From Nitrospirota bacterium (GTDB lineage Bacteria; Nitrospirota; Nitrospiria; Nitrospirales; Nitrospiraceae), in NCBI GenBank assembly GCA_030684575.1, contig JAUXVD010000008.1, forward strand, positions 496,001-560,000: DNA of 64,000 nucleotides, given 5' to 3'. Under the pieces are notes generated by a model, which saw nothing but the letters and a program-made list of their open reading frames with translations, searched no databases and had not been told where the DNA came from. The translations under genes were made by a program, and so were the position numbers. Shown here one piece after another: positions 24,289-63,531 of this stretch. Positions within the stretch are counted from its first letter, which is position 1; the number at the start of each line of letters is the position of its first letter.

Positions 24289-24393
24289 GAGCGATCCTTT
24301 CTTTGTATGTGACGGCGATGGACCTGATATCGCAAGTCCCGAAGCGTTGTAGAGTATGCGATGTGAGAGCCGGGCTCAAGACAATTATGCCTA

Positions 24394-24509
24394 ACAGGGT
24401 GCTGAAACAATTCTCCAGCTTCGTTCTCAGCTCATTGAAATCCTCACGGGTACGCCTCCGGTTTCGACTCGCCTGCGGCCTTGCTGGGCGAACTGTTTGA
24501 GCACCCTGT
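24394..24509 (+). repeat. R1 dispersed hairpin element, copy B
   Basis: Ends ACAGGGTGC and GCACCCTGT form a perfect inverted repeat whose bases differ from copy A on both sides together. The left half of the central hairpin is partly deleted (only GGGTACGCC remains). It occupies the gap between the start of fkpA and the stop of the next - strand gene. Confidence 0.75.
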
Positions 24510-24551
24510 GCGCTACATTCAAGAAAACGAATCGGTCGTAGTGCCTCCTCG

Positions 24552-37886: not shown

Positions 37887-37980
37887 CGAGGGCGACGGTC
37901 ATGCTCTTTTGCTCGCGCAACGCGCGGCCTCCGAAGGCCCTCGTTGGACGCGCGCAGTGAGAGCATAACCGTCGCCCTCG
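37887..37980 (+). repeat. R2 hairpin element, copy a
   Basis: Conserved core (GCTCGCGCAACGCGCGG, GAAGGCCCTCGTT, GACGCGCGCAG) flanked by arms starting CGAGGGCGACGG and ending CCGTCGCCCTCG. The arms pair over about 20 of 22 positions and are unlike those of other copies. TTATTTTCT follows the right arm, as after a terminator. Sense-oriented 3' of the glutaredoxin gene. Confidence 0.8.
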
Positions 37981-38575: not shown

Positions 38576-38630
38576 CTCAACTGCGCGCGTCCAACGAGGG
38601 GAGTCCGCGACCGCGCGTTGCGCGAGCACA
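38576..38630 (-). repeat. R2 element core, copy c
   Basis: On the - strand it reads CTCGCGCAACGCGCGG ... CCCTCGTTGGACGCGCGCAG, matching copies a, d and e; the middle (TCGCGGACTCC) differs. Arms pair only weakly here. It lies 24 bases 3' of the SDR gene in the sense direction. A separate short hairpin AAGGCTG-GA-CAGCCTT is next to it (38558-38573). Confidence 0.65.
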
Positions 38631-50442: not shown

Positions 50443-50446
50443 TTTG

Positions 50447-50575
50447 CAGGATGCTGAAAAAGCCCGCCAGCATCGTTCTCGCCTCGAACGCATCCTCAAC
50501 GTAGCCCAAGGCTACGCTTCCGGTGCCTTCGTCGGCCTATCCCTGCCGGATCGCTTGATCTTCAGCCTCGGTTCC
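50447..50575 (+). repeat. R1 dispersed hairpin element, copy C (right end worn)
   Basis: CAGGATGCTGAAA at the left; GTTCTCGCCTC and GTAGCC-CAA-GGCTAC in the middle; the right end no longer pairs well (TGATCTTCAGCC). Over the first 89 bases it differs from copy D at about six positions. It starts five bases after the kinase stop. Confidence 0.75.
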
Positions 50576-50633
50576 GTTTATCGTGCCCTACCACAGCACG
50601 CAGCTGTTTGAACATCTACAAAGGGCAAGAGTC

Positions 50634-51452: not shown

Positions 51453-51460
51453 TTCCTTCT

Positions 51461-51583
51461 AGGATGCTGAAAAATCCCGCCAGCGGCGTTCTCGCCTCGA
51501 ATGCATCCTCAACGTAGCCCAAGGCTACGCCTCCGGTGCCTTCATCGGCTGCGGCCTTGCTGGACGGTCTGTTTGAGCATCCT
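51461..51583 (+). repeat. R1 dispersed hairpin element, copy D (best complete copy)
   Basis: AGGATGCTGAAA...TTTGAGCATCCT terminal repeat, GTAGCC-CAA-GGCTAC centre, TGCGGCCTTGCTGG before the right end. It follows the MoxR stop by eight bases and precedes the DUF167 gene by 49. Confidence 0.85.
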
Positions 51584-51949: not shown

Positions 51950-52378
51950 ATGACGAGGAGACGTCTGTCCGTCATCGGGGGATTCCTGCTACTCACCGCC
52001 TGTTCGTCGGCGCAGCCGGTACTCTATCCCAATGCGCATCTGCAATCTGTCGGGAAGGACGTCGCGGAGCAGGATCTTGAGGCCTGCCGGCAATTGGCGG
52101 AAACGGCTGGGGCGGAAGAGGGCAATGGCAAAGCCGGTCGTGTGGCGGCCGGTACCGCGGTCGGGGCTGGTGTCGGAGCGGCAAGCGGCGCAGTCGGCGG
52201 CGCCATTTCTGGTGCAGCAGGCAGCGGTTCTATCATCGGGGCTGCGAGCGGGGCGGTGTGGGGATTACTCACGAGTCTGTACTACGTGTTCGCCGGGTCG
52301 CCGCCGAATCAAGCCTACACGAATTTCGTGAATCGGTGCTTGCAAGAAAAAGGATACGAGGTGACGGGATGGCAGTAG
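51950..52378 (+). CDS. Glycine-zipper lipoprotein, copy 1
   Basis: 142 residues. A short signal with lipobox LTAC gives a lipid-anchored mature end. The middle (about 65-105) is a glycine zipper of small residues every three to four positions (GVGAASGAVGGAISGAAG). The tail contains a conserved-looking NRCLQEKGYEVTGWQ. One cysteine in the N-terminal part (LEACRQLAE) may pair with the one in the tail. Glycine-zipper lipoproteins occur in many envelopes; function unknown. It and the next gene are related, probably by duplication. Confidence 0.75.
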   Translation: MTRRRLSVIGGFLLLTACSSAQPVLYPNAHLQSVGKDVAEQDLEACRQLAETAGAEEGNGKAGRVAAGTAVGAGVGAASGAVGGAISGAAGSGSIIGAASGAVWGLLTSLYYVFAGSPPNQAYTNFVNRCLQEKGYEVTGWQ

Positions 52379-52385
52379 CGGGATG

Positions 52386-52480
52386 GGGGCAGATGGATCG
52401 ATGCTCTTTGCTCGCGGAACGCGCGGCCTCGGAAGGCCCTCGTTCGACGCGCGCAGTCGAGCATCAATCCATCCGTCCCC
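52386..52480 (+). repeat. R2 hairpin element, copy d
   Basis: Arms GGCAGATGGATCGATGCTC and GAGCATCAATCCATCCGTC pair at about 19 of 22 positions; between them is the conserved core TGCTCGCGGAACGCGCGG ... GACGCGCGCAG. It starts eight bases after the stop of lipoprotein 1. Confidence 0.8.
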
Positions 52481-52499
52481 TCATAGAAAGAGGGAATGA

Positions 52500-52940
52500 A
52501 TGATTAAGAGGTTGATGTGGCAGCGTCTCATCATGGTCGGAATAGCCGTTGGTCTCGTGGCCTGTGCGGGGCCGGAGCCGTTGTTGCGGTCGAATGCGAA
52601 GGTACAGCTGCAGGGGCGGGAGGCGTCGAAGCTCGATGTGGCGCTGTGTCAGAAGAAGGCTGACGAAGCCGGACTGAAGCCGGGCACCCGCGCTCGAAGC
52701 AGTAACGTGGCTGCGGGAGCTGTCTTGGGTCTACTGACCGGCGCTGGAATCGGGGCATCGAGCGGGCTCATTGGCGGCGTACCTGGTGTGACGATCGGGG
52801 CAGCAGTCGGCGGCACGCTCGGAGTGATCGTCGGGTCGTTTGGTGGCGCCTACAAACCGCTGGAGCCGGATCCTCCGTATGCCGATGCGGTGGTGCGGTG
52901 TTTGATTGAAAAGGGGTATGATGTGAGTGGCTGGCAGTGA
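52500..52940 (+). CDS. Glycine-zipper lipoprotein, copy 2
   Basis: 146 residues. Lipobox LVAC after a signal of about 21 residues. A glycine zipper lies around 70-115 (GLLTGAGIGASSGLIGGV; VGGTLGVIVGSFGG). The tail RCLIEKGYDVSGWQ is nearly the same as in copy 1, and the Cys pair (ALCQKK and VRCLIE) matches as well. Ribosome site AGGGA. The last codons form part of the R2 hairpin that follows. Confidence 0.75.
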   Translation: MIKRLMWQRLIMVGIAVGLVACAGPEPLLRSNAKVQLQGREASKLDVALCQKKADEAGLKPGTRARSSNVAAGAVLGLLTGAGIGASSGLIGGVPGVTIGAAVGGTLGVIVGSFGGAYKPLEPDPPYADAVVRCLIEKGYDVSGWQ

Positions 52941-53027
52941 GGAGAGCCCTCCTTGCTCGCGGAACGCGCGGCCTCAGAAGGCCCTCGTTCGACGCGCGCA
53001 GTAGAGGGCTGCTCCTCTCTGCCAGCC
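52929..53027 (+). repeat. R2 hairpin element, copy e, overlapping the end of the lipoprotein gene
   Basis: GGCTGGCAG (last coding bases) pairs with CTGCCAGCC, and GAGGAG (starting in the stop codon) pairs with CTCCTC, followed by AGCCCTC/GAGGGCT; the conserved core TGCTCGCGGAACGCGCGG ... GACGCGCGCAG sits at the top. A further worn relative may lie near 53095-53150. Confidence 0.8.
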
Positions 53028-53206
53028 TGTGAGAGTGGAAGAGATAAGGAATTGGAAAGATGGCCGTGCGATGCAGGCCTGTGAGAAAGTCGGCCAGCTT
53101 TCTTGCTCGCAGACCGCGCACGATGAAACAGTGTTTGTTCGACGGACCAGTCTGGATTGCCCTGGCTGTGAGACCTGAGAGAGCGATGATTGCGGAGTAA
53201 GGAGCC

Positions 53207-63216: not shown

Positions 63217-63385
63217 AGGACGTTGAAAAGGTCTCCCTTCTCATCCGCCCAACCTCAGCGCGCCAAGACGCGCCTTTCCCTAGGCTGCGCTCTCGCCTCG
63301 AAAGCATTCTCAACGTAGCCATGAGGCTACGCTTCCGATGCTTCCATCGGCTGCGGCCTTGCCGGATGAACGTTTTGAACGTCCT
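63217..63385 (+). repeat. R1 dispersed hairpin element, copy E (with 45-bp insertion)
   Basis: Terminal AGGACGTT and AACGTCCT pair; centre GTAGCC-ATGA-GGCTAC; shared GCGGCCTTGCC. About 45 extra bases lie near the left end. The rest of 63215-63648 holds only a 10-bp hairpin and no coding signal. Confidence 0.8.
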
Positions 63386-63531
63386 TCGTGGCAGGTCCTA
63401 TCGCCCTCCTCGTTCCCTCGTATGCTCCTCCACTCGCTGCCGCTCGTGTTGTTCCGTCTGGCTTCTTGGGAATGGCATCCCGCTGATTTTTAGGGCACAG
63501 GGCACACACAAGTTCATGGGACCAAGTCGAG

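Follow-up and report, generated by a model that had tools for sequence, protein, structure and literature searches.

Copy e and the end of the lipoprotein 2 gene

The window analyzed, a stretch of DNA of 64,000 nucleotides, carries the lipoprotein 2 gene on its forward strand (positions 52500 to 52940). This open reading frame encodes a glycine-rich protein of 146 amino acids ending in ...DVSGWQ*, and orthologues were present in 22 congeners. On the same strand lies a hairpin element, copy e of the repeat R2, whose left arm has the final nine coding bases and the stop codon of this gene at its base. The left arm (class A, GGCTGGCAG TGA GGAGAGCCCTCC, 24 nt) extends from 52929 to 52952, the R2 core, which is the conserved hairpin tip (covariance model R1), from 52953 to 53002, and the right arm (GAGGGCT G CTCCTC T CTGCCAGCC) from 53004 to 53027. 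A sequence-only reading of the locus had the left arm begin in the final three sense codons (GGC TGG CAG), cross the TGA and pair with CTGCCAGCC and CTCCTC on the far side, the distal arm thus being complementary to coding sequence. All of this was borne out at 52929-52952 and 53004-53027. On the left the pieces are GGCTGGCAG (52929-52937), TGA (52938-52940), GAGGAG (52939-52944) and AGCCCTC (52945-52951), and on the right GAGGGCT (53004-53010), CTCCTC (53012-53017) and CTGCCAGCC (53019-53027); the last of these, complementary to the final three codons, joins the right arm to coding sequence by nine consecutive Watson-Crick pairs. The fold consists of 9 + 6 + 7 pairs interrupted by a T.T mismatch at the stop codon and by one extra G, with a predicted energy of -74.1 kcal/mol (z -5.2). 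In arm complementarity copy e ranked sixth among 96 R2 copies of the window's genome.

Copy d, the R2 element behind the lipoprotein 1 gene, folds as well as copy e with entirely different arms. As had been noted from the sequence alone, lipoprotein 1 has a nearly identical C-terminus (VTGWQ*), and the arms of its element differ and start past the stop. The stop codon (TAG) is located at 52376-52378, the left arm at 52383-52407, the core at 52408-52457 and the right arm (GAGCATC A ATCCATC...) at 52459-52484, all on the forward strand. A third core on this strand (37909-37958) has long arms of its own (left GAGGGCGACGGTCATGCTCT, right AGAGCATAACCGTCGCCCTC). The fourth, on the reverse strand at 38580-38628, is a chimera: its left arm is of the dispersed class G, and its right arm, which does not match, belongs to a different class.

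A diverged R2-like copy (TTGCTCGCAGACCGCGC...TTCGACGGACCAGT) was also seen at 53103-53160, about 75 nt downstream of copy e. Behind lipoprotein 2 in other stretches (L004 at about position 2290, L014, L016 and L021) further R2 copies are preceded by stray gene-end fragments (TCGGGGTGGCAGTAA/TGA), as if gene end and element had been duplicated together.

R2 is a dispersed hairpin element of the Nitrospira group

With a covariance model of the tip, 97 full-length R2 copies were detected in the window's genome. The fixed part is the core of 47-50 nt, and the core covaries: 31 cells were double-changed, and 97.2% of the cells were paired vs 87.2% in shuffles. The exact R2 pattern occurred in at least 120 stretches of GTDB species genomes, and among the matches listed all were in records named Nitrospira, Nitrospiraceae, Nitrospirae or Nitrospirota. 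An R2 match was found in 36 of 61 relatives, all of the same family; the comparison sample consisted of stretches fetched around R2 copies. R2 is a dispersed hairpin element specific to the Nitrospira group. None of five R2 loci submitted to an Rfam search reached the gathering score.

The arms are variable in sequence and matched in pairing. Complementary arms (score of at least 10) were present in 82% of 96 copies of the window's genome vs 11% after left and right arms had been shuffled between copies, so the complementarity is beyond chance. The 178 copies from this genome and from orthologues fell into 55 arm classes, with a median stem length of 24 nt (21-27 nt, 5th to 95th percentile). 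In a second set, taken from named Nitrospira records and partly overlapping the first in genomes, 107 of 117 copies were paired, in 41 classes and again with a median stem of 24 nt. Two interruptions recurred near positions 10 and 19, counted from the core.

R2 copies tend to follow genes. An open reading frame of the same direction ended within 70 nt before the core in 49 of 91 copies of the window's genome vs 9 in the mirror position, and in 62 of 117 vs 28 in the second set. Since the stem is about 24 nt long, a core that lies nearer than about 22-24 nt to a stop must take the stop and coding bases into its arm. About 20 independent cases of such arms were found, copy e among them; the arm of copy e is of the usual length, and its core merely lies nearer to the stop.

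The position behind genes, the constant stem length, the interruptions at fixed places and the covarying core pairs all speak for the main rival to the reading preferred below, namely structural selection. According to this explanation a hairpin 3' of the stop is useful (as transcript end, for protection of the mRNA or as a protein-bound structure), point mutations are retained when they restore pairing, and it is the arm that comes to match, since the gene is not free to change. That other species have different hairpin types or R1 repeats at some of these gene ends also fits, while several species with no hairpin at all at the same gene end count against it, as do the persistence of chimeras with unmatched arms and the lack of a U-run after the stem in the copies inspected. 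Sequences downstream of the right arms were inspected by eye, unscored, and revealed no T-rich run; the U-run directly after the stem that marks a Rho-independent terminator was not seen.

No paper describing R2 was found in the literature on Nitrospira repeats. The combination of a conserved tip with a locally matched and sometimes coding stem is real and general, and it is undescribed in the literature searched.

The right arm follows the gene

Class-A arms, the class of copy e, were present in 7 of 32 genomes. Outside the lipoprotein locus no class-A arms with fewer than two mismatches were found in these 32 genomes, and their confinement to lipoprotein ends means that no dispersed subfamily was their source. 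CTGCCAGCC was present in all five class-A copies with intact arms (L001, L003, L004, L023 and L027) and in none of 11 orthologous lipoprotein ends that have the identical GGCTGGC with another class or no element. It was also missing from the two class-A chimeras, in which the right arm is of class B (L002) or of another kind (L005). The right arm is in this sense a reverse-complement copy of a neighbor that was there before, the coding tail predating the arm. The glycine codon was GGC at 7 of 7 class-A sites vs 12 of 41 others (Fisher p = 0.0007, uncorrected for descent).

Conversely, the element might have brought the gene end with it, its left arm with the last codons and the stop overwriting the tail of the gene. 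Something of this kind is suggested by the L085 gene, whose tails vary with the class of the element (...PRGGRA*, ...PRGAR* and ...PRGGR*) and whose class-I arms contain the stop. For copy e this explanation is contradicted by the GW(Q/E)* tail, which was conserved in every homologue with other elements or none (R2-free examples are L031 and L032), and by the absence of class A elsewhere; overall it is considered very improbable.

Element-free orthologous ends had no excess of complement to the coding tail (4.96 vs 4.72 shuffled), with the restriction that the detector missed diverged copies (L117, L150 and L160) and some ends scored as R2-free do carry R2. Likewise, complement above chance was lacking at six orthologous gene ends that carry no repeat of any kind. 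One of the two outcomes named in advance as contrary to the sequence-only reading, a distal complement present in relatives without the element, was thus not seen. These sites also bear on the idea that the core was inserted into the loop of a hairpin already standing behind the gene. Some REP dimers do sit within palindromes (PMC3733652), and unrelated palindromes occur at some orthologous ends, but no empty site had a stem without a core and the interruptions lie at fixed distances from the core, so that this origin is hardly credible.

The same relation was found beyond the lipoproteins. Over 24 gene-by-class cases, pairing scores with the real coding tail added up to 825, vs 756 ± 11 with the tails of other genes. 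With the added set, restricted to cores within about 22 nt of the stop, the values were 637.5 and 527.9 ± 11.8, and with the lipoproteins left out 560.5 and 467.1 ± 11.8; two of the 20 items in this test (L049 and L278) are class-G copies with a doubtful assumed upstream gene, and the cases L117, L168, L231, L236, L273, L130 and copy e hold independently of these two. A lack of excess complementarity in other copies, which had been named in advance as evidence to the contrary, was thus not observed. In the L117 gene (...VMG-stop), four arm types that differ by species all pair with the coding end ...ATGGGG/ATGGGC (for example GGTCATGGGC/GCCCATGACC and ATGGGG/CCCCAT), and in the L050 gene AAGGTAT/ATACCTT pairing occurs in three species.

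In dispersed classes the class-specific inner arms were kept and only the base matched the local stop codon (class G, L080/L190). The basal block GGGATGG/CCATCCC of class G was changed to GTGATGG/CCATCAC in two orthologous copies that have a TGA stop there. CCATCCC was found in nearly all class-G copies, and CCATCAC exactly where GGGATGG reads GTGATGG.

These comparisons, in which the distal arm was missing wherever class-A arms were, support the view that the right arm follows the gene and not the gene the arm. The sequence-only reading had offered two possibilities: the element came with an inverted copy templated by the target, or selection shaped the arm to the gene end. On either of them the arm follows the gene, and to this extent the reading stands. 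The copy may be made upon insertion; given the class-specific inner arms and the chimeras with mismatched arms, later re-copying or selection fits as well.

Origin of the matched arms

The origin of long paired stems, and of joint change on their two sides, is an old question. In each genome the one conserved R2 tip is found on dozens of independent stems, and tens of species have orthologous sites; because at some sites one side is fixed by the protein sequence, the direction of copying is readable. The element is therefore a natural test of templated vs selected compensation. Covariation, the usual proof of a functional RNA, may stem from copying of DNA.

The reading we favor, at somewhat less than even confidence, is copying at the DNA level by template switching at the hairpin. 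Only the tip of 47-50 nt would be fixed, and the stem of about 24 bp below it would be set by the surrounding DNA. The core hairpin would fold back the replicating strand, and the polymerase would then use the 5' (gene-side) flank as template for the far side, a template switch of the quasipalindrome type. Such copying could build a stem wherever the core lands and could re-correct it later, while structural or stability limits would keep its length close to 24 bp and its interruptions at two. In copy e, GGCTGGCAG and the region of the stop codon would have been copied into CTGCCAGCC...CTCCTC. A bolder version is regarded as rather doubtful: a mobile tip, on reaching a new site, would produce its stem there by making an inverted copy of about 24 nt of the upstream flank, coding bases and stop included. 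If this were true, the ends of host genes would become part of the R2 element.

Template-switch or quasipalindrome mutations are known to produce or repair inverted repeats; a nearby arm serves as template, the 5' arm being the source, and Watson-Crick pairs change at both bases. Intrastrand template switching is described as correcting pairing to the 5' base (PMC8794818). In R2 the gene side would be the one copied onto the 3' side, which matches this direction. Compensated Watson-Crick changes numbered 59, nearly as many as one-sided changes, and about 40% of them require a transversion. For comparison, 78.5% of two-step compensations in rRNA stems pass through G-U (PMC8794818).

Mismatches were counted on the gene-sense strand, where A.C (121) was more frequent than G.T (46); the class-weighted counts were 89 and 29, and those of the replicate 61 and 20. 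This threefold excess is the opposite of what an mRNA stem would tolerate, and the rarity of G.T argues against selection on an mRNA stem and favors a process at the DNA level. Most of the excess was at the two interruptions, and elsewhere the ratio was 35 vs 21 (about 1.7 to 1). DNA pairing alone would lead to equal numbers of A.C and G.T; at the interruptions the opposite strand would keep a wobble.

Three observations count against template switching. Compensated columns were only slightly clustered (142 adjacent vs 118 expected), and there is no clear sign of large blocks copied in one step. Structural selection is also suggested by a stem length that stays constant and by the fixed interruptions. 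Finally, no copying event was caught between near-identical strains. Because of the weak clustering, the constant length and the fixed interruptions, template switching is preferred only tentatively, and structural selection, which we consider somewhat unlikely, is kept as the main rival.

Mobility and comparison with known systems

Wobble on the strand opposite the gene could also mean that the hairpin is recognized there as single-stranded DNA by a transposase or recombinase, as in REP/RAYT or attC/integron integrase, the arms being made or fixed at insertion. The sense-strand A.C mismatches, which are G.T on that strand, and the extra bases at fixed places are consistent with such a substrate, and so are the dispersed classes, the half elements joined to whole ones and the elements split by others. 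Half elements meet complete ones at GAAC or GAAGG junctions in L123, L189, L143, L192 and L025, and the left and right arms of L002, L005, L019, L021 and the window copy at 38580-38628 belong to different classes. Dispersed classes, chimeras and half elements show frequent recombination or nested insertion. Left halves of several classes end after ...TGCTCGC(A/G)GAAC and are fused directly to class-G elements (L003, L012, L021, L025, L046, L061 and L100), and others, fused to class-I or related elements, break off within the loop at ...GAAGG (L123, L143 and L189). These junctions look site-specific.

The clearest pair of occupied and empty sites is at the L101 gene, where the empty site of genome G010 reads GTGAGGAAGTGGAATG and genome G000 has an element with TGAGG on either side. 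This would suit a transposed substrate; insertion and deletion would fit the pair of sites alike. TGAGG on both flanks in the comparison of L140 with L101 is a possible target-site duplication or a deletion by slippage.

Against a mobile single-stranded substrate, all TIGR02249 matches for an integron integrase in the genome were below the cut-off, the sole Y1 transposase gene (Y1_Tnp) had no R2 in its 3.3-kb locus (about 1.5 kb either way), and arms confined to a single locus cannot be selected for mobility. This explanation was judged improbable.

Like R2, the REP/BIME/REPIN elements with their RAYT (Y1) transposases are short palindromic intergenic repeats of about 100 copies, and R2 shares the REP trait of a high-copy, mostly extragenic palindrome (97 copies, a hairpin, at gene ends). 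REP elements may even overlap gene ends and supply a TAG stop (PMC3733652). REP stems, however, are conserved within a family (20-40 bp overall), whereas in R2 only the tip is conserved and the 24-bp arms are local. The GTAG/CGTC end tag of REP was not found, aligned copies sharing only the tip while flanks and arm ends vary. The RAYT gene is flanked by repeats, whereas the one Y1 gene here is unlinked; action at a distance is possible.

Integron attC sites have a conserved structure and a variable sequence, contain extra-helical bases and directly follow the stop of an open reading frame. R2 resembles them in all three respects. In attC the basal R boxes are conserved, whereas in R2 it is the tip. 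By eye, the basal R'/R'' boxes (RYYYAAC ... GTTRRRY) were absent, the bases of R2 stems being variable, and AAC/GTT was seen only inside the core, where it does not fit GTTRRRY.

Quasipalindrome mutations arise sporadically in existing stems, whereas R2 is a dispersed core that is accompanied at dozens of sites by a new stem, in some cases one of coding sequence. Coding palindromes, inverted repeats of protein-coding sequence, have been described in mitochondrial genes of Nematomorpha (PMC6649704); both of their arms are coding and they have no dispersed core, unlike R2. In habit R2 resembles REP and in the matching of its arms template-switch palindromes; by the features tested it is neither REP/RAYT nor attC.

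At gene ends that carry R2 here, other species have unrelated, often low-complexity palindromes (GTTTCACG..., GTCTGTCTGG... and TATGGCGTATGGC...), as seen in L144, L170, L183, L185, L193, L196, L197 and L178. A second dispersed repeat (AGGATGCTGAAAA...TTTGAGCATCCT) occurs in the window at 50445-50580, 51458-51583, 2606-2744, 24393-24521 and 63284-63399, and also in L164 and L174. Many class-K copies of R2 come after its GCTGAAAA, and its ends are variable yet complementary (GGCTGCTGAAAATGG/CCATTTTGAGCAGCC in L164).
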